DNA from: Tachypleus tridentatus
Taxonomy: Eukaryota; Arthropoda; Merostomata; Xiphosura; Limulidae
Assembly: GCF_004210375.1 (NCBI RefSeq)
Contig: NC_134833.1
Span: 46,060,782 to 46,124,781 of the forward strand
DNA: 64,000 nucleotides
Direction of reading: 5' to 3'
The translations under genes were made by a program, and so were the position numbers. Under the pieces are notes generated by a model. The model was not told where the DNA came from. It worked only from the letters and a program-made list of their open reading frames with translations, and did not search any database. Position 1 is the stretch's first letter, and each line of letters begins with the position of its first letter. This document shows positions 7,289-61,564 of this stretch, piece by piece.

Positions 7289-7562
7289 GGCCTGGCATGG
7301 CCAAGCGCGTAAGGCGTGCGACTCGTAATCCGAGGGTCGCGGGTTCGCGCCCGCGTCGCGCTAAACATGCTCGCCCTCCCAGCCGTGAGGGCGTATAATA
7401 TGATGGTCAATCCCACTATTCGTTGGTAAAAGAGTAGCCCAAGAGTTGGCGTTGGGTGGTGATGACCAGCTGTCTTTCCTCTAGCCTTACACTGATAAAT
7501 TAGGGACGGGCTAGCACAGATAGCCCTCGAGTAGCTTTGTGCGAAATTCAAAAACAAACAAA
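7289..7562 (+). repeat. SINE-1, full length, 14-bp target duplication
   Basis: Complete copy: tRNA-like head (CCTGGCATGGCCAAGCGCG), B box GGGTTCGCGCCC, linker, conserved core with TGGGTGGTGATGA, then the tail ending in ACAAACAAAC. It is flanked by perfect CTATTACGGCACTC repeats (7275-7288 and 7563-7576), direct evidence of target-primed insertion. It belongs to the GCGCG-headed subtype. Confidence 0.95.
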
Positions 7563-14736: not shown

Positions 14737-15025
14737 CGGCCTGGCATGGCCTAGCGCGTTAAGGCGTGCGCTTCGTAATCTGAGGGTCGCGGGTTCGCGC
14801 CCGAATCGCGCCAAACATGCTCGCCCTCCCAGCCGTGGGGGCGTTATAATGTGACGGTCAATCCCACTATTCGTTGGTAAAAGAGTAGCCCAAGAGTTGG
14901 CGGTGGGTGGTGATGACTAGCTGCCTTCCCTCTAGTCTTACACTTCTAAATTAGGGACGGCTAGCACAGATAGCCCTCGAGTAGCTTTGTGCGAAATTCC
15001 AAAACAAATGCAAAAAAATGCAAAA
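14737..15025 (+). repeat. SINE-1, full length, 10-bp target duplication
   Basis: Complete GCGCG-headed copy (GGCCTAGCGCGTTAAGGCG, GGGTTCGCGCCC, conserved core, CGAAATTCC tail). TCCACCACAG repeats at 14727-14736 and 15026-15035. The tail is extended by an A-rich run with two AAATGCAAAA-like motifs. Confidence 0.95.
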
Positions 15026-22505: not shown

Positions 22506-22945
22506 TATTGTCATCCAAGACTAAATCATTTAGCGATAACTGCACCCTACTTATCATTTAAGACTTAATCACTTAGCGATAACTACACACTGCTCATCAT
22601 CCAAGACCCTAAATCATTTAGCAATAACTACACACTGCTCATCATCCAAGACCTTAAATCATTTAGCAATAACTACACACTGCTCATCATCCAAGACCTT
22701 AAATCATTTAGCAATAACTACACACTGCTCATCATCCAAGACCTTAAATCATTTAGCAATAACTACACACTGCTCATCATCCAAGATCTTAAATCATTTT
22801 GCAATAACTACACACTGCTCATCATCCAAGACCTTAAATCATTTAGCAATAACTACACACTGCTCATCATCCAAGACCTTAAATCATTTAGCAATAACTA
22901 CACACTGCTCATCATTCAAGACTCTAAATAATTTAGCAATAACTA
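22506..22945. repeat. 45-bp minisatellite, about ten copies
   Basis: Unit of 45 bp beginning CATCATCCAAGACCTTAAAT and ending ACACACTGCT. The central six copies are almost identical. The first two (TAAATCATTTAGCGATAACT variants) and the last are diverged, the edge-decay pattern expected of an array homogenised from its centre. Confidence 0.95.
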
Positions 22946-23358
22946 CTTCATCACGCTTTATTGGATGTAATCCAATCAGTAATGACTATAAAAGTCCCAA
23001 AAACTTTGTTCAACTGGGTAATTACAGTAAATTATGACATTATGATTTTAGAAAAATTAGTTTGGATTTGATTTTTCAAAATAGTGATTTGAAACGAGTT
23101 TGTGTTATTTATAGAATTTGATTTTGTTGTTTAATCACACACTTGAACATTTTAATATTCTACAGATATTATTATATTCGACTATCGAAGTTCCACGGAT
23201 GTTTTACAGATGGAGATTCGTCTTGAAGAAGGGAGAAGATGGTGGTTGTTTATTCTGTGAAGAAAATAAATTCATTTAATAATTCACTTATAATGAAAGA
23301 AATACTTCGAGAGAACAAAGTATAAATCAGTAAAATTGTTTTAACGGTGTATGTGATG

Positions 23359-26162: not shown

Positions 26163-27345
26163 TTATAACTATGTTTAGTTAAAAATAGCAAAACATTTAC
26201 AGATTGTAGATTGCTCTCGTCACACCTACTTTTGAAAAGCTTTAAAGACATAAAATGTCGCTAAGCCGCCAATGTAATGCCTACATCGAAATAAAGACCT
26301 GTACTATAACATAGGCAGATGTTTAGCGTAAATGATGTACTTTGTCTGCTATGTTATTGGATGAATATCTATACTTTATACAAGTGGGTAATTATTTATG
26401 CCGATATGTTTATTTATAAAGTTGTATATATATATATATTACGGGATATTATAAATTATCAAATAACAAGCAAAAGTACATGTTCCTAGAGACAGAAACA
26501 TTTAAGTCAATTTATCTGTTAAATTATTTCATAGAGTTTAAAAAGATCATTGTTTTTGCATTCTTGGTTTCACTCCGAGTTAAAACTTTGAGCTACTTAT
26601 ACTACCAACCACGAAAAGTAATTGTCAAACATTTCACTCATCCCACAAGAAACTCAACAATAACATCTGTTAAATTTACACTTTTATTCTTTATTTTACG
26701 TCACATTTTCAAATGTGAGTAATTCTTAACAGCTGAATGTAGAATATCCTGACTGCGAAATAAAATTTGTCATCGACACTATTCATGCATGTAAAATTTT
26801 CCATCAACATTATTCATGCCTATAAAATTTGACATCCACATCATTCATGCCTGTAAAATTTGGCATCAATACTATTCATGAATGAAAAATTGGACATCAG
26901 CATTATTCATGCATGTAAAATTTGACATGAACACTATTCATATGTTTAAAATATGGCATCATCATTAATCATACCACTAAAAATTTGTCATCAACATATT
27001 CATACATGTAAAATTTGACATCAATATTATTCATGTCTATTAAATTTGGTATCATCGTTATTCAGCGCTGTAAAATTTGGCATCAACATTATTCATGCCT
27101 GTATAATCTTCCGACAACATTATTCACGCCTGTAAAATTTGTCGTCAATATAATTCATATCTGTAAAATTTGGAATCAGCATTATTCATGCATGTAAAAT
27201 TTGACATCCACATCATTCATGCCTGTATAATTTGGAATCAACATTATTCGTGCTTGTGAAATTTGACATGAAAACTATTCATATCTGTATAATTTGGCAT
27301 CAACATTATTCGTGCCTGTAAAATTTGACATCATCATTACTCATG

Positions 27346-27620
27346 AGCCGGCATGGCCAGGTGGTTAAGGCACTCAACTCGTAAACCGTGGATCGGAGAT
27401 TCGAATTCCTGTCACAACAAACATACTCGCCCTTTCAGCCGTGGGGGTGTTATAATGTGACGATCAATCCCATTATTCGTTGGTAAAAGAGTAGCCCAAG
27501 AGCTGGCGGCAGGTGGTGATGACTACTTGCCTTCCCTCTACCTTCACACCGCTAAATTAGGGATGGCTAGCACAGATAGCCCTCGTGTAGTTTTGCGCGA
27601 AATTCAAAACAAACAAAAAC
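27346..27620 (+). repeat. SINE-1, full length, inside the 31-bp array
   Basis: GCCGGCATGGCCAGGTGG head, B box AGATTCGAATTCCTG, core and the CAAAACAAACAAAAACC tail. Flanking array units (ATCATTACTCATG and ATCATTATTCATGG) may be the target duplication, but array periodicity makes this undecidable. Confidence 0.93.
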
Positions 27621-27892
27621 CAAATCATTATTCATGGCTGTAAAATATGACATCGACATTATTGATATCTGTAAAATTTGACATTAACATTATTCATATC
27701 TGTAAAATTTGACATGAACACTATTCATTACTGTAAAATCTTCCAACAACATTATTCTTGCCTGTTAAATTTGATATCAACATTATTTATGGATGTAAAA
27801 TTTGGCATAAGCATTATTCATGGCTGTAAGATTGGGAATCAACATTATTCATGCCTGTAAAATTTGACATCGACATTACTCGTGCATGTAAA

Positions 27893-28034
27893 ATCCCACT
27901 ATTGGTAAAAGAGTAGCTCAAGAGTTGGCGGTGGGTGGTGATGACCAGCTGTCTTTCCTTTACTCTTATACTGCTAAAATAGGGACGGCTGGCGCGCACA
28001 GCCTTCGTGTCGCTTCACGCGAAATTCAAAACAG
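27893..28034 (+). repeat. SINE-1, 5' truncated, inside the 31-bp array
   Basis: Begins at AATCCCACTATTGGTAAAAG and keeps the core and tail through CGCGAAATTCAAAACA. The tRNA head is absent, as expected for incomplete reverse transcription. Confidence 0.9.
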
Positions 28035-28566
28035 TACATGTCAATACTGTAAAATTTGGCATTTTCAGTATTCATGCCTGTAAAATTTGGCATCAACATT
28101 ATTCGTGCATGTAAAATTCGACATTAAAATTTGTTATGCCTGTAAAATTTGGCATCATCATTATTCATACTTGTAAACTTTGGCATCAATATTATTCATG
28201 TCTGTAAAATATGGCATGATAATATTTTACATTACTCATGCTTCTAATATTTCACACGAACACTATTCATATCTGTAAAATTTATTATCATCTTTATTCA
28301 TGCCTGTAAAAATTAACATTAACATTATTCACATCTGCAAAATTTTGCATCATCATTATTCATACCTGTAAAAGCTTCCAACAACATTATTCATGTTTGT
28401 ACAATTTGACATCAACATTATTTATGTGTATAAAATTTGGCATCATCATTATTCATGACCATAAAATGTGACATGAACACTATTCACATCTGTTAAATTT
28501 GGCATCATCATTATTCATGTGTGAAATTTTGGCGTCAACATTATTCATTAACGTAAAATTTGACAT

Positions 28567-28745
28567 CAACGTTATCCATGTATGTGAATTTGAAATAAAC
28601 GATATTCATGCCTGTAAAACCTGGAATCAACGTTATTCATGTATGTGAATTTGAAATAAACGATATTCATGCCTGTAAAACCTGGAATCAACGTTATTCA
28701 TGTATGTGAATTTGAAATAAACGATATTCATGCCTATAAAATGTG
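28567..28745. repeat. Higher-order repeat of 60 bp within the 31-bp array
   Basis: Three near-identical dimers: AACGTTATTCATGTATGTGA, then AAATAAACGATATTCATGCC. They differ from the array consensus but barely from each other, so they were amplified recently as a two-unit block. Confidence 0.88.
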
Positions 28746-29098
28746 ACATGAATACTGCTCATATCTGTAAAATCTGGCATCGTCATTATTCATACCTGTA
28801 ACATTTGGCATCAAAATTATTCATTTATGTAAAATTAACATAAAATTATTTATGACTGTAAAATCTTCCAACAATATAATTCACGCCTGTAAAATTTGTC
28901 ACCAACATTTTTCATGTCTATAAAATTTCGCATCATCATTATTCATATCTGTAAAATTTTCATCTTCAGTATTCATGCTTGTAAATGTTGGCATCAAGAT
29001 TATTCATGCATGTAAATTTGATATTAAAATTTGTCATGCCTGTAAAATTTCACATGAACACTATTCATATCTGTAAAGTTTGGGATCATCATTATTTA

Positions 29099-29147
29099 TG
29101 GCCTGGTGTGGCCAGGTGGTTAAGTCATTCGACTCGAAATCTAAGGT
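29099..29147 (+). repeat. SINE-1 tRNA-like head only, inside the 31-bp array
   Basis: GGCCTGGTGTGGCCAGGTGG and TCATTCGACTCGAAATCT, then the array resumes. Only the first 48 bp of the SINE remains. Confidence 0.85.
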
Positions 29148-29639
29148 TGTAAAATTTGGCATTTTCATCATTCATACATGTAAAATTTGACATCAACATT
29201 ATTCATGGTGGTAAAATTTGGAATCAACATTACTCATGGCTGTAAAACTTGACATTAACATTATTCATACCTGTGAGATCTTCTAATAACATTATTTACA
29301 CCTGTACTATTTGTCATCAACATTATTTATGGCTGTAAAATTTGGCATTTTCATCATTCATACATGTAAAATTTGACATCAACATTATTTATGTCTATAA
29401 AATTTAGCATCATCATTATTCATGGCTGTAGAATTTGGCATGAATATTATTCATATCTGTAAAATTGGACATCAACATTATTTACGCCTTTAAAATCTTT
29501 CAATAACATTATTGATACCTTTAAAATCTTTCAACAACATTATTCATGCCTTTAAAATCTTCCAACAACATTATTCACACCTATAGAATTTGTCACCAAC
29601 ATTACTCATGTCTATAAAATTTGGTATCATCATTAGTTA

Positions 29640-29850
29640 TGGCTGTAACATTTGGTATCAACACTATTCATATCTGTAAAATTTGGTATCAACACTATTC
29701 ATGTCTGTAAAATTTGGTATTATCATTAGTTATGGCTGTAAAATTTGGTATCAACACTATTCATGTCTGTAAAATTTGGTATCATTATTAGTTATGGCTG
29801 TAAAATTTGGTATCAACACTATTCATGTCTGTAAAATTTGACATCAACAT
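29640..29850. repeat. Second higher-order block (62-bp dimers) in the array
   Basis: Alternating units with TTAGTTATGGCTGTAAAAT and CACTATTCATGTCTGTAAAA form about three dimers with a shared GGTAT variant that is rare elsewhere in the array. Confidence 0.8.
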
Positions 29851-29888
29851 TATTACCGTCTGTAAAATTTGGCATCATCATTATTCTT

Positions 29889-30079
29889 GGCCTGGCTTGG
29901 ACAGGTGGGTAAGGCACTCGACTCCGAGGGTCGCGGGTTCGAATTTCCGTCACATCAAATATGCTCACCCTTTTAGACGTGTTGGCGTTATATTGTAATA
30001 GTCAATTATGCTTTTCATTGGTAAAACAGTAGCCGAAGAGCTGGCGGTGGGTGTTAATGAATTGCTGTCTTCCCTCTAG
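29889..30079 (+). repeat. SINE-1, 3' truncated, at the right edge of the array
   Basis: GGCCTGGCTTGGACAGGTGG, B box GGGTTCGAATTTCCG, linker and core up to CTTCCCTCTAG. It marks the point where the 31-bp array stops. Confidence 0.9.
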
Positions 30080-40535: not shown

Positions 40536-40808
40536 GGCCCGCCATGGCCGGGTGGGTTAACGCTTCCGAGCAGTAATCTTAGGGTCGCGGGTTCGAATCT
40601 CCGTCACGTCAAACATGCTCGCCCTTTCAGCCATGCGGGCGTTATAATGTTACGGTCAATCCCACTATTCGTTTGTAAGAGAGTAGCTCAAAAGTTGGCG
40701 GTGGGTTGTGATATGTACCTGCTTTCCCTCTAATCTTACACTGCTAAATTAGGGACGGCTAGTACGGATAGCCCTCGTGTATCTTTGCGCGAAATTCAAA
40801 AACAAACA
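40536..40808 (+). repeat. SINE-1, full length
   Basis: GGCCCGCCATGGCCGGGTGG head, GGGTTCGAATCTCCG B box, core and the CGAAATTCAAAAACAAAC tail. It is the last plus-strand SINE-1 before the orientation switch described in the findings. Confidence 0.94.
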
Positions 40809-43180: not shown

Positions 43181-43391
43181 TTACACTGGTTTACAAAGAA
43201 ATTGAGGCAAGCACAAAAATAGCTGTTTTAACCTAATTTGGGGGTGCTGAATTCAGATTTGAAATCCGTTTTTGCTCATCACCTCTAGTTTTTTAGATAT
43301 GCATACTGTACATAAAGGCGTATATGCATTCAGGGTTAATTTCTAATATTGTGTGACTTATGTCTTCTTTTTTAGTTATTATGCAATAAAT

Positions 43392-43640
43392 GTAAGTGAT
43401 AGCATTACATTATATATATATATATATAGCTATATATCAAGACGGATTTTGGCAGTTAAGCGTAGCCAACACGTCTCAATCAACAGCCAGTAGTGCACTG
43501 GCAGTCAGCGCAGGAGGTTGGTGTCCCTCGACAATTGTGTTATACAATCTTTTGCGTATATATTTGTATTACAATTTCTAACGACGCACATAATTATTAT
43601 TGCCTTACATATGATTTAATTTTACTTTGTTTTTTTTCAG
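43392..43640 (+). other. Probable 5' leader intron of the transposon gene
   Basis: A strong donor GTAAGTG at 43392 and a polypyrimidine tract ending TTTTTTTTCAG at 43640 would define a 249-bp intron. The acceptor lies 8 bases before the chosen ATG. The frame happens to stay open upstream to 43493, but that stretch translates to hydrophobic, AT-driven residues unlike the rest of the protein. No transcript is available to confirm it. Confidence 0.5.
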
Positions 43641-43648
43641 ATTCTCCA

Positions 43649-45355
43649 ATGGCTTCAAGCTCGTCAAAACACCGAGGATGCCTCAACAAGGCCAATTCTT
43701 TCTGCTACGTGTGTGGGGACTTCACGACAGTTGCACAGCGTCGAACCATCACTTCCCTCCTCAGAACTGCCTACTTTCATTATTTTGACTGTAAAATTGG
43801 TGATCAGAACAAATCTTGGGCTCCACACATCTGTTGTAAGCTTTGCTACAATGGACTAACTGCTTGGTTTAATGGCAAGAAAGTAGCTTTCAACTTTGCA
43901 GTCCCGATGGTTTGGAGAGAGCCACGAAGCCATGCAGATGATTGTTATTTTTGTCTAACAAATATAACTGGTTTCAATTCATCTTCTAGAAAAAAGATCA
44001 AATATCCCAACCTTCCATCTGCTATGAGACCCGTTCCCCATTCAGATGATCTTCCTGTCCCAACACCTCCAGTAAATAAGGATCTTCTTTCCTCATCAGA
44101 TAAAGAAATGCCTCCAAGGGAAGATTCTGCCAAGTCAATCTCTTCCGAAGATATTGACTCTTCTTATTCAGGAACAAGTGGCAACGAGCCACACTGGATC
44201 ACGCAAGAAGACCTGAATGACCTTGCTCGTGATTTGTATCTGTCAAAACAGCAGTCAGAGCTCTTGGCTTCTCGGCTTAAACAGTGGAACCTAGTCCAGG
44301 AAGATGTAAGGATCACCAGTTTCAGGAATCGGAACAAAGACCTTGCTTCATTTTTCGACATGGAAAACAAGTTGTGCTACTGCACAAATGTACCTGGCTT
44401 GTTCACTTTCCTTGGTTTGCCACATAATCCTTCAGACTGGCGTCTTTTCATAGACTCTTCCAAGCGAAGTCTCAAGGCTGTGCTTCTGCACAACGGGAAT
44501 AAATATCCCAGCATTCCCACTGCACACTCTGTCCATCTAAAGGAGTCCTATGACAATATGGAGCTTCTTTTAGAAGCTGTTAAGTACAACCAGTACCAGT
44601 GGAGTCTGTGTGGGGACCTCAAGGTCATTGGTCTTCTTATGGGTATGCAAGCGGGCTTCACAAAGCACTGTTGCTTTCTCTGTCTCTGGGATAGTCGAGC
44701 TGTATCCCAGCATTACAAGCAGAAAGACTGGGGGTCTAGAAGCACTTTCGTTCCTGGCGAACACAGCGTCAAGGAGAATCCTCTGGTTGACATGAAGAAG
44801 GTGCTTCTTCCTCCTCTTCACATCAAGCTTGGTTTGATGAAGAATTTCGTGAAGGCCATGGACAAAAATGGTGCTGCCTTCCAACACTTGTCTACTGTGT
44901 TCCCAGGTCTCAGTGCTGCTAAGCTCAAAGAGGGCATCTTTGTCGGACCTCAAATCCAAGAAGTGCTGAAGGATACTGATTTTGAGGAGCTTCTTACCTT
45001 AAAGGAACTGAGAGCATGGGAAGCATTTAAGTCAGTCTGTAGTGGCTTCCTTGGTAACACACATGTACCAAATTACCAAGCCTGTATTGAGAAGTTGCTA
45101 AAGACTTATGAGGATATGGGATGCCGAATGTCACTCAAAATTCATTTTCTCCATTCCCACCTCAACTTCTTCCCTCCAAACCTTGGAGCAGTGAGTGATG
45201 AGCACGGAGAAAGATTCCACCAAGACATTACGAAGATAGAGAACAACTACCAAGGCAAGTGGAACCCCAGCATGATGGGAGACTTCTGCTGGATGCTCTT
45301 GCGTGACATCCCGGAGGCAAAATACACCAGATCATCTAAGAAAACACACTTCTAA
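43649..45355 (+). CDS. Transposase-like protein of the CACTG element, intact (568 aa)
   Basis: Starts at MASSSSKHRG, directly after a splice-acceptor-like site; the frame is open to TAA at 45353-45355. The N-terminus is Cys-rich, with pairs at C19/C22, C63/C66 and C99/C102, probably zinc-binding. Residues 130-180 are Ser/Pro/acidic linker. The remainder has the layout of an RNase-H-fold (DDE) enzyme: D269 in LFIDSSKRSLKAVLLHNG, D323 in CGDLKVIGLLMG, a CCFLC knuckle (C342/C345), LPPLHIKLGLMKNF with H391, and SDEHGERFHQ with E518 or E521. These catalytic assignments are inferred from position, not proven. From memory, similar proteins are multi-copy and unnamed in arthropod and cnidarian genomes. 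No stop or frameshift is seen, and codon use is far less AT-biased than the surroundings. It sits wholly between matching inverted repeats, so a transposition role is the natural reading. Confidence 0.88.
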   Translation: MASSSSKHRGCLNKANSFCYVCGDFTTVAQRRTITSLLRTAYFHYFDCKIGDQNKSWAPHICCKLCYNGLTAWFNGKKVAFNFAVPMVWREPRSHADDCYFCLTNITGFNSSSRKKIKYPNLPSAMRPVPHSDDLPVPTPPVNKDLLSSSDKEMPPREDSAKSISSEDIDSSYSGTSGNEPHWITQEDLNDLARDLYLSKQQSELLASRLKQWNLVQEDVRITSFRNRNKDLASFFDMENKLCYCTNVPGLFTFLGLPHNPSDWRLFIDSSKRSLKAVLLHNGNKYPSIPTAHSVHLKESYDNMELLLEAVKYNQYQWSLCGDLKVIGLLMGMQAGFTKHCCFLCLWDSRAVSQHYKQKDWGSRSTFVPGEHSVKENPLVDMKKVLLPPLHIKLGLMKNFVKAMDKNGAAFQHLSTVFPGLSAAKLKEGIFVGPQIQEVLKDTDFEELLTLKELRAWEAFKSVCSGFLGNTHVPNYQACIEKLLKTYEDMGCRMSLKIHFLHSHLNFFPPNLGAVSDEHGERFHQDITKIENNYQGKWNPSMMGDFCWMLLRDIPEAKYTRSSKKTHF

Positions 45356-45639
45356 CTGTCTGCGGTACTATGAATTGTGTACATTGTGTCATCCAAGTAT
45401 ATTTATTCCGTCAATGTTCTTTATCTATCCTGTTTTATCTGTAATAAGCTGCTGCAACTGTTGAAATAAGCACGTATATACTCTGTATATACTAAAATAA
45501 GACTATTTAAAAGCCAGAAAACTAGAGGAGATAGAGCAAAACTGTTTATTAAATTTGAATTCAGCACACCCAAATTAGTAAAAAACACCTATTCACATTC
45601 TTGCCTCAGACAAAAAATATTTTTTGTAAACCAGTGTTA

Positions 45640-46319
45640 TGTAACAGAAATAGTGCAAAGCTGAAACAAACTGCTACAGGAGTAAAATTAATGTCTGCTC
45701 TTTGAACATAAAGAATCACATTGAGTAGACAATTATTCAAGCTTTGAGGGAGCCTAAACAGTTTACTCATTTTTAGTGAAACAAATCAACTGAATATTCC
45801 GTGTAGAAGTGGTATGCAGCTGATGGGATCACAATTCTCCAATAAGAAGATAATATGTTTACGATAAAAAGTGCATTGCTTGAAGTACTGGTGAATACAA
45901 TTTACTACAGAATATGTGATTATTAGTATTATAATCTTTGTCTTTATGGTGATAAAACACATAAATATTACCTACTTCCACTTCTCGGAGATGTATTCAA
46001 ACATTATTTGAACTTGAAACAGATTTTAAATGTTATTCACTTCTGAAGTTGTTCGGAGAGGTAACACTGTAAAATAGTGACATTAGTCTGCCACAATAGA
46101 TAGCTTAAACAGAAAAATTATAAGTAATATTTTCTAATTAAAATGGGTGTGACTTTTTGGAGCACACTGCAGTGCACAAGGTTTCAGTAAAGAATGAATA
46201 CATGCGTGTAAGAAGTAAGCCGTCGTGGTTCCTGTTGTCACAAAAGGCAGCAAATGTTATTGAATGAGTGGGACTTAATATTAAGTGGTTCATGCAAAAA
46301 CTGTTTAAGAAAGGTTTTG
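45640..46319. other. AT-rich sequence, nothing recognised
   Basis: No gene or repeat family between the CACTG element and the following SINE. Confidence 0.45.
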
Positions 46320-46551
46320 GTTTCTTTTAAATTTCGCGCAAAGCTATACAAGAGCTATCTGCGCCTGCGCTAGCCGTCCCTAATTTAGAGATGTAAGACT
46401 AGAGGGAAAGCAGCTAGTCATCACCACCAACCGCCAACTCTTAGGCTACTCTTTTTCCAACGAATAGTGGGACTGACCGTCACATTATAACGCCCCACGG
46501 CTGAAAAGGTGAGCATGTTCGGTGCGACGGGGATTCGAACCCGCGACCCTA
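46320..46551 (-). repeat. SINE-1 copy lacking the extreme 5' head
   Basis: Minus-strand copy from the AAATTTAAAAGAAA-type tail to the B box (GGGTTCGAATCCCCG). The A-box part beyond it is missing. The tail carries a small duplication (GCGCCTGCGCTAGCC). Confidence 0.9.
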
Positions 46552-52980: not shown

Positions 52981-54259
52981 GTAAGTCATACCAGGCTGTA
53001 TAGCCGTTTGAAATGTCTGAGGAAGCAAGAATGATCCTAAATTGGGAATACTAGCTTTGCATAAAGAATTTTTATCAGTATATACACTAACATTCCTATC
53101 CTAAAATGAAAATATATTCCCAAAACTGCAATTAGCAAATAACACTACTATTTATATTGGAATTGTATATTGTCCTCCACATTCAAAACTGGACATAAAT
53201 CTTTTACTTACTATTGTAGGTAGTAACTACATCAAAACAGGAGATGTAAATAGTAAACATTAGATGTTTGGGTGTACAAGCACATCATGAAACAGAGAAA
53301 AAACTGTCAGGCTTTATTGAGAAAACAGATACTATTATGCTAAACGATAACTTCTACACACTCAAACTATACGAACAACAGAAGCGAAATCCGGGATCTA
53401 GGTATATGTCCAACCCTATTACTTAATTCTTTCCTATCCAAGATACAATTAAGAAAAACATCTGAGCAAAATATCAGGAAATTTTTAGTTACCTTTGCCA
53501 GTTAATATCACTACCAATGTTATACAAATATCAGTTTTTATTGCAGTACCGTCACTGATTGTCTATTATACGCAACAGACACGTGATTACCAAAAATCAC
53601 GCAAAAAACTAACTCTCCCACAAGAAACCTCATGAAAAACTGATGAACAAAATCTAAGAACGCTGGAAAATTAATAAAACACAAAAAAAAACAGTTTAAC
53701 ACAGAAAAACTAAAACTGAACTCAGAGTGCGTAAAGCAGACAAATTGAACGATTGCTAAATCAAACTTAAATATATGCATAAAACCAACAGACTTCCAGT
53801 TACTTCTTAAACAACTTGCAGGAAATGCTTACATATAATAATACTCAGGTTTACACAAACACTTCCAAAGCGGAGGCTTTGAAAACATCTACAACACACA
53901 TTCACAACACTAAATGAATGATTAACAGCTATGTAAATTCACATACAATTTAGCACCAGTCTTCTCAGTCTCACTCGAGAGTGTTAAATTAAAACTACTT
54001 TCAAAAACATGATGTTGTATTAAAGACGCTCAGTAAACAATTACAACTACAGAAATACAAAAACACAATAAGAAAAGTTAACAATAAGGCCCCTGGTGCG
54101 GATCAAATAGAATACATACTCATCGAGAAAGGACTTTTGAGTTTATAAAAGTATTTGCCAGCAATGTTTAATGTCTCAGTATAACTTGTCTTTATACCAG
54201 CCGTATGAAAACTGGTAGATGTTTTACTTTTCTTGAAGGTAGGAGCTATCAATTTAGTT

Positions 54260-54531
54260 GGGTTTGTTTTGAATTTCTCGCAAAACTACACGACGGCTAT
54301 CTGCGCTAGCCATCCCTAATTTGGCAGTGTAAGACTAGATGAAAAGCAGTTAGTCATCGCCACCCACCGCTAACTCTTGGGCTACTCTTTTACCAACGAA
54401 TAGTGGGATTGGTCGTTACATTATAACAACCCCACAGCTGAAATGGCTAGCATGTTTGATGGGACGGGGATTCGAATTCGCGACCTTCCGATTACGAATC
54501 AAGCGCCTTAACTATCTGGCCATGCTGGGCC
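54260..54531 (-). repeat. SINE-1, full length, nested in the LINE
   Basis: Interrupts the RT domain between VGAIN and the SYRPISL-like block. Flanks GAGCTATCAATT and GAACTATCGACT may be a diverged target duplication, implying an old insertion. Confidence 0.93.
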
Positions 54532-57747: not shown

Positions 57748-58077
57748 TCATCATCATTCACCACTCGATTCCATCAAGGAACATAGAGCCGCAATCACTT
57801 GCGGATTCTTCAACAGGTATTTAAGTGAGTAGGTTGTTAGCCCACTGCACCGAGCCGTCCCTAATTTAGCAGTGTAAGACTAGAGGGAAGGCAGCTAGTC
57901 ATCACCACCCACCGCAAAGTCTTGGGTTACTCTTTTACCAACGAATAGTGGGATTGACCGTCACATTATAACGCCCCCACGGCTGGGAGGGCGAGCATCT
58001 TTGGCGCGACGCGGGCGCGAACCCGCGACCCTCGGATTACGAGTCGCACACCTTAGCGCGCTTGGCCATGCCGGGCC
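57748..58077 (-). repeat. SINE copy A: SINE-1 head and core joined to an unrelated tail
   Basis: From 57848 rightwards this is minus-strand SINE-1 (GAGCCGTCCCTAATTTAG to GGCCCGGCATGGCCAAGC). To its left, where the usual tail should be, lies about 100 bp of other sequence (GGAACATAGAGCCGCAATC, CTTGCGGATTCTTCAACAGG). Nearly identical TCATGCATATGGAG / TCATGCATATAGAG flank the whole unit (57734-57747 and 58078-58091), suggesting it inserted as one chimeric element. Confidence 0.75.
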
Positions 58078-58554
58078 TCATGCATATAGAGTAGTGCCAT
58101 TAAATTTCCACATAACATTGCAGAAATGAATAACCTGGAAAGAAAAGAGAACATTAGGAAGAGGGTTTACGGTCGATAATGAACTCGAAATGGATATTAA
58201 AAGAAGAGAACATAAAATGGAAGTACGTTATGAAAGTTGCAATTGATTTACTTTCTTCTCTGCGGCTAATACTCAAGTAATCTGTTCTTGGAATTTTGGA
58301 ATATTTTTTGATTTTGTTAACCTGATAAGAAAGTACGATAAAGAAATTGGTGCTTACATTGAGAATATGAAGAAAGGGCTCACAATGGTAACCTACATTT
58401 CGTCCGATATTCAAAATTAAACGATATGTTACTGTTGTTTCTCAGGTGAAGAAATCCATATATTACACAGTATAGCTTAAGTATGCACTAAACATGACAC
58501 ATAAGGGAAAAGTGACACAAATAATTCGATATGCAAAGATCGATGAAAACTGTA

Positions 58555-58590
58555 CCCCCTCCCCAGTGGCACAGTGGTATGTCTGATACA
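58555..58590 (+). repeat. SINE-3 head fragment
   Basis: CCCCAGTGGCACAGTGGTAT and GTCTGATACA match the start of SINE-3. The rest is missing. The same fragment recurs at 60298-60333 in the duplicated copy. Confidence 0.7.
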
Positions 58591-59224
58591 TAGAATAACA
58601 AAAGATAGAAACGAATCGTTGGAGCATTATGTGACTAACCTTTTCAAGATCAGTGTATCGTGAAACTAATTACTTATACTTCTCTTTGTAGACAGGTTTT
58701 ATCTGTTCATGATTTCTCTGTAAAATAACAAAGTTTTATTAATCTTAAATGTATAACATGAGTTATTTATGTTTCAGGACAAAATCTATAATGACGAGAC
58801 GTCTCAATAATTTTACGAAGTTCTAGCGGTTAGTACTTATGTTTCAAAATTATTCAAAATCAAATCTTCTTTGTAAAATCATAGAAGCTGAGATACCCTA
58901 TTAAATTCTATTATTTTTGATGAAACATAAGATGGTTATGCTGTCTTTGTTAATCTTTATTAGTAATGTTTATGTAATAGAAAAATTTGCTTTTAAAAAG
59001 TTTATGTATGTGATTGGATTTTTCCTAGGGTAATTTATTCATTCAGGAAACTATTTAAAAAAGCATAATAAGAACGTTACATACTTCTCTGAATTTTGTT
59101 AGAGCAAAACGTTAACATAGAGTTTAATAACGTGTGTAAAATCAGTGGTATAAGAATATAGGAATGAAAACATGGTTATCTTGAATGAATTTTCCTGTGA
59201 TACTGATTCTGTTTCGTTTAGATT

Positions 59225-59498
59225 GTTTGTTTGTTTTTGAATTTCGCGCAAACCTACACAAGGGCTATCTGCGCTAGCCATCCCTAAGTTAACAGTGTAA
59301 GACTAGAGGGAAGGAAGAGTCCTTAACACCCACCGCCAACTCTTGGGCTACTCTTTTACTAACGAATAGTTGGATTGACCGTCACATTATAATGCCTCCA
59401 CGGCTAAAAGGGCGAGAATGTTTGGTGTGATGAGAATTCGAACCCGCAACCCTCGGGTTACGAGTCAAGCGCCTTAACCACCTGGCCATGGCGGGCCT
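59225..59498 (-). repeat. SINE-1 copy B, full length
   Basis: Complete minus-strand copy with GTTTGTTTGTTTTTGAATT tail and GGCCCGCCATGGCCAGG head. It lies inside the duplicated segment and therefore has a twin at 60970-61243. Confidence 0.95.
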
Positions 59499-59545
59499 TT
59501 TATTGGCTTTATCGAAACGAAACTTTAAACAGGTTTATTGTTAAA

Positions 59546-59820
59546 TTTGTTTGCTTTCGAATTTCGCACACAGCTACTCGATGGCTATCTGTGCTAGCCG
59601 TCCCTAATTTAGTAGTGTAAGACTAGAGGGAAAGCAGCTAGTCATCACCACCCACCGCCACCTCTTGGGCTACTCTTTTACCAACGAATAGTGGGATTGA
59701 CCGTCACATTATAACGCCCCCACGGCTGGGAGGGCGAGCATCTTTGGCGCGACGCGGGCGCGAACCCGCGACCCTCGGATTACGAGTCGCACACCTTAGC
59801 GCGCTTGGCCATGCCGGGCC
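59546..59820 (-). repeat. Hybrid SINE-1 at the duplication junction
   Basis: The left part up to 59704 matches copy C (61292-61564), including the CACCGCCACCTC variant. The right part from 59671 matches copy A, including CATCTTTGGCGCGACGCG and the flanking TCATGCATATAGAG. Its left flank carries the TTTATTGTTAAAT target sequence of copy C and its right flank that of copy A, so it has no target duplication of its own. Confidence 0.95.
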
Positions 59821-61415
59821 TCATGCATATAGAGTAGTGCCATTAAATTTCCACATAACATTGCAGAAATGAATAACCTGGAAAGAAAAGAGAACATTAG
59901 GAAGAGGGTTTACGGTCGATAATGAACTCGAAATGGATATTAAAAGAAGAGAACATAAAATGGAAGTACGTTATGAAAGTTGCAATTGATTTACTTTCTT
60001 CTCTGCGGCTAATACTCAAGTAATCTGTTCTTGGAATTTTGGAATATTTTTTGATTTTGTTAACCTGATAAGAAAGTACGATAAAGAAATTGGTGCTTAC
60101 ATTGAGAATATGAAGAAAGGGCTCACAATGGTAACCTACATTTCGTCCGATATTCAAAATTAAACGATATGTTACTGTTGTTTCTCAGGTGAAGAAATCC
60201 ATATATTACACAGTATAGCTTAAGTATGCACTAAACATGACACATAAGGGAAAAGTGACACAAATAATTCGATATGCAAAGATCGATGAAAACTGTACCC
60301 CCTCCCCAGTGGCACAGTGGTATGTCTGATACATAGAATAACAAAAGATAGAAACGAATCGTTGGAGCATTATGTGACTAACCTTTTCAAGATCAGTGTA
60401 TCGTGAAACTAATTACTTATACTTCTCTTTGTAGACAGGTTTTATCTGTTCATGAGTTCTCTGTAAAATAACAAAGTTTTATTAATCTTAAATGTATAAC
60501 ATGAGTTATTTATGTTTCAGGACAAAATCTATAATGACGAGACGTCTCAATAATTTTACGAAGTTCTAGCGGTTAGTACTTATGTTTCAAAATTATTCAA
60601 AAATCAAATCTTCTTTTGTAAAATCATAGAAGCTGAGATACCCTATTAAATTCTATTATTTTTGATGAAACATAAGATGGTTATGCTGTCTTTGTTAATC
60701 TTTATTAGTAATGTTTATGTAATAGAAAAATTTGCTTTTAAAAAGTTTATGTATGTGATTGGATTTTTCCTAGGGTAATTTATTCATTCAGGAAACTATT
60801 TAAAAAAGCATAATAAGAACGTTACATACTTCTCTGAATTTTGTTAGAGCAAAACGTTAACATAGAGTTTAATAACGTGTGTAAAATCAGTGGTATAAGA
60901 ATATAGGAATGAAAACATGGTTATCTTGAATGAATTTTCCTGTGATACTGATTCTGTTTCGTTTAGATTGTTTGTTTGTTTTTGAATTTCGCGCAAACCT
61001 ACACAAGGGCTATCTGCGCTAGCCATCCCTAATTTAACAGTGTAAGACTAGAGGGAAGGAAGAGTCCTTAACACCCACCGCCAACTCTTGGGCTACTCTT
61101 TTACTAACGAATAGTTGGATTGACCGTCACATTATAATGCCTCCACGGCTAAAAGGGCGAGAATGTTTGGTGTGATGAGAATTCGAACCCGCAACCCTCG
61201 GGTTACGAGTCAAGCGCCTTAACCACCTGGCCATGGCGGGCCTTTTATTGGCTTTATCGAAACGAAACTTTAAACAGGTTTATTGTTAAATTTGTTTGCT
61301 TTCGAATTTCGCACACAGCTACTCGATGGCTATCTGTGCTAGCCGTCCCTAATTTAGTAGTGTAAGACTAGAGGGAAAGCAGCTAGTCATCACCACCCAC
61401 CGCCACCTCTTGGGC
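59671..61415. repeat. Segmental tandem duplication, copy 2 (1,745 bp)
   Basis: Direct, adjacent repeat of 57928-59670, two bases longer because of single-base insertions in A and T runs near 60600-60616. It starts in the hybrid SINE and ends in copy C. Confidence 0.96.
60970..61243 (-). repeat. SINE-1 copy B, duplicated twin
   Basis: Twin of 59225-59498 with one visible difference (CCCTAATTTAACAG here, CCCTAAGTTAACAG there). Confidence 0.95.
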
Positions 61416-61564
61416 TACTCTTTTACCAACGAATAGTGGGATTGACCGTGCCATTATAACGTCCCCACGGCTGAAAGGGCGAGCATGTTTGGCACGACGG
61501 GGATGCGAACCTACGACCCTCAGATTACGAGTCGCACGCCTTAACACGCTTGGTCATGCCAGGC
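61292..61564 (-). repeat. SINE-1 copy C, 13-bp target duplication
   Basis: Complete minus-strand copy with TTTATTGTTAAAT at 61279-61291 and 61565-61577. It supplies the left half of the hybrid SINE and marks the right limit of the duplicated region. Confidence 0.95.

Follow-up and report, generated by a model that had tools for sequence, protein, structure and literature searches.

The window analyzed here, a stretch of 64,000 nucleotides from the horseshoe crab Tachypleus tridentatus (contig NC_134833.1, positions 46,060,782 to 46,124,781), contains a full-length DNA transposon of the cut-and-paste type, very probably belonging to a Chapaev3-type family within the CMC/CMCT clade. Evidence at the level of the family confirmed it as a well-preserved, ordinary example of a transposon kind already known. 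A previous sequence-only reading had called it an apparently intact DNA transposon, and direct reading bore out its exact ends, the TTA on both sides and an uninterrupted frame of 568 amino acids. The element and its borders are located as follows (window coordinates).

43184..45636, + strand: whole transposon, 2,453 bp, with exact ends; of 40 host-genome places that were scored, 34 have the same boundaries
43181..43183, no strand: left target-site duplication TTA, with A before it; read directly, other copies having the same pattern
45637..45639, no strand: right target-site duplication TTA, with T after it; read directly, other copies having the same pattern
43184..43292, + strand: left terminal inverted repeat, 109 bp, from a BLAST match and a gapped alignment
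45518..45636, - strand: right terminal inverted repeat, 119 bp, from the same two sources

At the left border TTA is followed directly by CACTGGTTTACAAA, and at the right border TTTGTAAACCAGTG is followed directly by TTA, the right end being the reverse complement of the left-end CACTGGTTTACAAA. The two arms of the window copy were 76% identical in the BLAST comparison within the host genome, and their gapped alignment scored 97, while 300 shuffles of the bases in one arm reached at most 16. The lengths of 109 and 120 bp given earlier for the inverted repeats hold for the left arm, but the right arm measures 119 bp.

The mitochondrial contig of the host genome carries a COX1 with 100% identity to that of Tachypleus tridentatus, ahead of Carcinoscorpius (98%) and Limulus (96%), and the host is accordingly taken as this species. 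The element was searched against the 2.17-Gb host genome, and 40 places were scored among 910 first-look candidates. The 34 places with shared boundaries span element bases 1 or 2 to 2453 and the other six are partial, so the family is far beyond chance resemblance. The pattern TWA plus CACTGGTTTACAAA occurred 248 times genome-wide, against three occurrences of the reversed pattern; at two ends per copy, this indicates at least about 120 copies. Among 100 of the 248 places, 82 formed 41 pairs and 18 had no partner. The size count, which leaves out these 18, gave 25 pairs at 2.3-2.5 kb, nine at 1.40-1.49 kb and seven of other sizes. For the comparison of copies, the 30 best-scoring ones were fetched and all set to one orientation. 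A division into two subfamilies, one with dead genes, was considered and rejected as an artefact of the orientation of minus-strand loci.

The 3-bp flanks were identical in 27 of these 30 copies (TTA in 15, TAA in eight, ATA in two, TAT and TAC in one each), in agreement with the duplication predicted at other copies. The duplication had the form TWA in 23 of the 27, and in 24 it was preceded by A and followed by T, the exceptions being two G..T and one A..C. Unequal flanks were seen in L007 (CAA/TAA), L017 (TAA/TAT) and L022 (AAT/TAA). Both CAC...GTG termini were kept in 27 of the 30 copies, the outermost bases being imperfect in L022 (beginning CAA), L023 (beginning TAC) and L025 (ending TTG). 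Twenty of the 41 pairs were fetched as well, 15 of them picked for unusual size. Their flanks were equal in 18 cases, although this is a biased test because the pairs had been selected by the TWA pattern; L050 had TAA/TTA, and the mismatch at L039 was a coordinate artefact.

Paralogous empty sites were found for two copies. The joined flanks of L045, with one TTA kept, match a related repeat beside L013 with no gap where they meet (71% over 387 columns). L048 lies within an interspersed repeat, of which the window contains several copies without the element (84-86%); these carry CTA where L048 carries TTA. Two other candidates, L019 and L035, were dropped as empty-site evidence, their matches being too gapped or shifted.

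Deletion derivatives of the element have also moved. One internal breakpoint, joining element position 442 to 1474, was common to ten of the 20 pairs, nine of which measured 1.40-1.48 kb and one (L036) 1.56 kb. Because L039 and L040 stem from a single insertion whose surrounding region is duplicated (flanks 97-98%), the ten derivatives represent at most nine insertions. A second breakpoint, 450/1086, was shared by L037 and L044, L037 having an extra duplication, while L038, L041 and L045 each had rearrangements of their own and L046-L050 were full-length. In the usual picture, such internally deleted copies would have been moved by transposase acting in trans. In L045, a piece of the transposase gene is repeated in tandem at about element positions 1200-1638 (locus coordinates +603), with an offset of 106 bp.

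The gene between the inverted repeats starts with ATG at 43649, ends with a stop codon at 45353-45355, and is the only open reading frame (ORF) of at least 150 amino acids in the window. An acceptor-like tract, TTTTTTTTCAG, stands directly upstream of the ATG, and the gene may therefore have a non-coding first exon. The features of the gene and its protein are given below.

43649..45355, + strand: transposase gene, 568 amino acids in one open coding stretch; the start is similar in the full-length homologues read
43679..43954, + strand: N-terminal cysteine domain, residues 11-102, a candidate "Chapa" domain with weak resemblance to ZAD, from conservation and a structural model
44186..45346, + strand: predicted RAG1/Transib-like catalytic core, residues 180-566, from the predicted structure
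44453..44455, + strand: D269, candidate first catalytic Asp, in at least 90% of 92 sequences, ending the first core strand (264-270)
44615..44617, + strand: D323, candidate second catalytic Asp, in at least 90% of 92 sequences, directly after strand 319-322
44672..44683, + strand: C342-x2-C345, the C(2)C motif, invariant in 92 sequences
44816..44821, + strand: L390-H391, the LH motif, invariant in 92 sequences
45143..45160, + strand: H499-x4-H504, the H(4)H motif, H499 invariant and H504 in at least 90% of 92 sequences
45200..45211, + strand: E518 and E521, alternative candidates for the catalytic Glu, both in at least 90% of 92 sequences, at the start of helix 518-533

A C-x2-C knuckle does lie where it was expected, after the second candidate Asp and before the Glu, and the RNase-H-like fold proposed for the protein was predicted, with Transib and RAG1, an enzyme of the vertebrate immune system, as the nearest solved structures to the model. 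The structural comparison covered only the chains ranked by Foldseek, in which the absence of other transposase families is uninformative. A sequence search against solved structures gave no significant match, and Pfam assigned the window protein no family at E<=10, nor did any model exceed its cut-off among the family members with listed results. The protein family is nevertheless large, with 2,165 matches at E<=1e-3 among 7,988 scored; the few named members encountered are annotated as "hypothetical" or "uncharacterized". A scan of viral contigs for relatives yielded 65 stretches fitting a pattern, none of which was confirmed.

The assignment to Chapaev3 was made by published hallmarks, the named Chapaev3 elements being compared by description. 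Passages of Zhang et al. (2014, PMC4079192) give these hallmarks as CAC..GTG ends, a TWA duplication between A and T, and the motifs C(2)C, LH and H(4)H, together with a mostly single coding exon and small deletion-derived elements; for the elements treated there the A..T context is stated to be "always" present. The hallmarks testable here are all present, the transposase combining C(2)C at 342-345, LH at 390-391 and H(4)H at 499-504 with the candidates D269, D323 and E518/E521 in the predicted fold. The earlier placement in CMC fits, and is narrowed to Chapaev3-like by the TWA sites in A..T context and the three motifs; parts of PMC12730594 deal with the wider CMCT clade. The horseshoe crab family is separate from Merrow, Garfield and Conan, the Chapaev3 elements of PMC4079192, and is likened to them by their description in that source, which includes the same ends, target sites, motifs and internal-deletion derivatives. 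Its size is also similar, at 2,453 bp and 568 amino acids against 2,289 bp and 556 amino acids given there for Garfield_BM. The single coding exon is as in, apparently, most Chapaev3 transposases, while those of Merrow and Garfield are described in the same text as having two exons.

A true animal EnSpm/CACTA element is an unlikely alternative. The CACTG termini would fit the CACTA name, and the 3-bp duplication agrees with EnSpm, whose duplications are also short; fungal EnSpm families likewise have C(2)C, H(3-4)H, CAC..GTG ends and 3-bp duplications, according to sections of PMC12730594. The CACT-type ends and a duplication of 2-3 bp, shared with EnSpm/CACTA along with the CMC motifs, are common to Chapaev3 as well and are therefore not decisive. 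In contrast, the TWA target in A..T context with LH and H(4)H matches Chapaev3, as do a length of 2.3-2.5 kb, a transposase of about 556-568 amino acids and a putative N-terminal zinc-type domain, according to the accounts in PMC4079192 and PMC4411706. Target preference and size are nearer Chapaev3, and no Pfam match to EnSpm/CACTA was recognised: no CACTA-type family appeared for the window protein, for seven homologues, or among the 18 families reported across 42 members, although this is weak evidence.

A second alternative, namely a narrow-sense Transib (the transposons nearest to RAG1) whose duplication varies to 3 bp, is very improbable. In the best comparisons, some 350-370 residues of the predicted core superpose on Transib (HzTransib), RAG1 and the lancelet RAG-like protein, and the candidate DDE residues with C(2)C and H(4)H are shared with Transib and RAG1. 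However, sequence identity was 9-13% in the RAG and HzTransib comparisons. Canonical Transib and RAG duplications are of 5 bp, whereas the 27 horseshoe crab copies with identical flanks duplicate 3 bp. The family also has a conserved N-terminal Cys domain, whereas Transib is described in portions of PMC4411706 as having no identifiable domain besides the core. There was no sign of a RAG2-like gene within the element, which holds one ORF of at least 150 amino acids.

For a Chapaev3-type element, the 568-amino-acid transposase would bind the end repeats of about 110-120 bp and its RAG1-like DDE core would cut at the CAC/GTG ends. Once excised, the element would be joined into a TWA site that has A before it and T after it, and the 3-bp duplication would arise when the staggered cut is repaired.

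Mean divergence from the majority state was 1.05% across the 30 copies (0.82% for the window copy), and pairwise divergence averaged 2.07% with a range of 1.18-3.53%. As 565 variant states were private to one copy and 96 occurred in two or more, the 30 copies descend from one star-like burst. They then decayed close to neutrally: within the gene, 388 nonsynonymous and 156 synonymous changes were observed, against 377 and 156 expected without selection. Nonsense changes (21 against 32) were somewhat fewer than the neutral expectation in this sample of best-scoring copies, which leans to the least decayed. That we are dealing with a domesticated, host-useful gene instead of a mobile element has next to no probability, for the intact frame, alone of its length in the window, and the shortage of nonsense changes would agree with it, but the 40 scored copies, the duplications, the empty sites, the neutral fit and the divergence of the window copy, which is in line with the others, argue against it. 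A frame of 568-569 amino acids was open in six of the 30 copies (L001, L012, L015, L017, L026 and L028), and the intact gene of the window is thus among several that have survived decay. The proposal that this element is the only candidate for recent activity is therefore true at most within the window, being contradicted genome-wide by the open frames in five of the 29 other copies. The activity itself lies in the past as far as these data go: even the most similar pair among the 30 copies differs by 1.18%, which gives no sign of a very recent jump, and present activity is unproven.

The N-terminal domain has the conserved residues C11, C19-x2-C22, H60, C63-x2-C66 and C99-x2-C102. According to PMC4411706, an N-terminal zinc domain called Chapa occurs both in Chapaev3 proteins and in RAG1. 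Two of 42 members gave weak matches to Pfam PF12560 (RAG1_imp_bd) around residues 40-116, with E-values of 0.32 and 0.54 that fall short of the cut-off. The order C-x2-C ... C-x2-C at the N terminus also recalls the ZAD (zf-AD) of arthropod zinc-finger transcription factors. Weak zf-AD sequence matches below the Pfam cut-off occurred in ten of 42 homologues, with none in the window protein itself, and the predicted-fold match to ZAD was below the Z that the comparison tool treats as safe. Past its ZAD-like part, the horseshoe crab domain appears to differ in having one more conserved pair, C99-x2-C102. We tentatively suggest, as a possibility that is rather doubtful at present, that the Chapa-type domain is a ZAD fold and that arthropod ZAD and the RAG1 N terminus either descend from a Chapaev-type transposase or have a common ancestor with one.

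Some other features of the window and genome were observed. A direct duplication of about 1.97 kb (57853-59819 and 59596-61564; 98.6% identity, offset about 1,743-1,745 bp) includes two 300-bp stretches that are 100% identical, and therefore either arose recently or reflects the assembly. A repeat of about 240 bp is interspersed in the window, with 23 matching stretches on both strands, some of them partial (for example 7319-7562, 14773-15014, 40573-40807, 46310-46550, 54258-54500 and 59226-59466), and also occurs in the flanks of many fetched loci. Tandem arrays occupy 22511-22946 (45-bp unit, 9.8 copies) and 26761-29894 (31-bp unit, about 100 copies, 64% matches). COX1-like stretches with stops on nuclear contigs (C9:118898281-118899402, C13:169799699-169800061 and C3:62898857-62899363) are probably nuclear copies of mitochondrial DNA.

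As a clean, well-bounded family with a RAG1-like predicted fold, the horseshoe crab element could serve as a candidate in transposition assays and in studies of how RAG evolved. The one point of possible specialist interest is the resemblance to ZAD, which, if confirmed, would tie a major domain of arthropod transcription factors to transposases.
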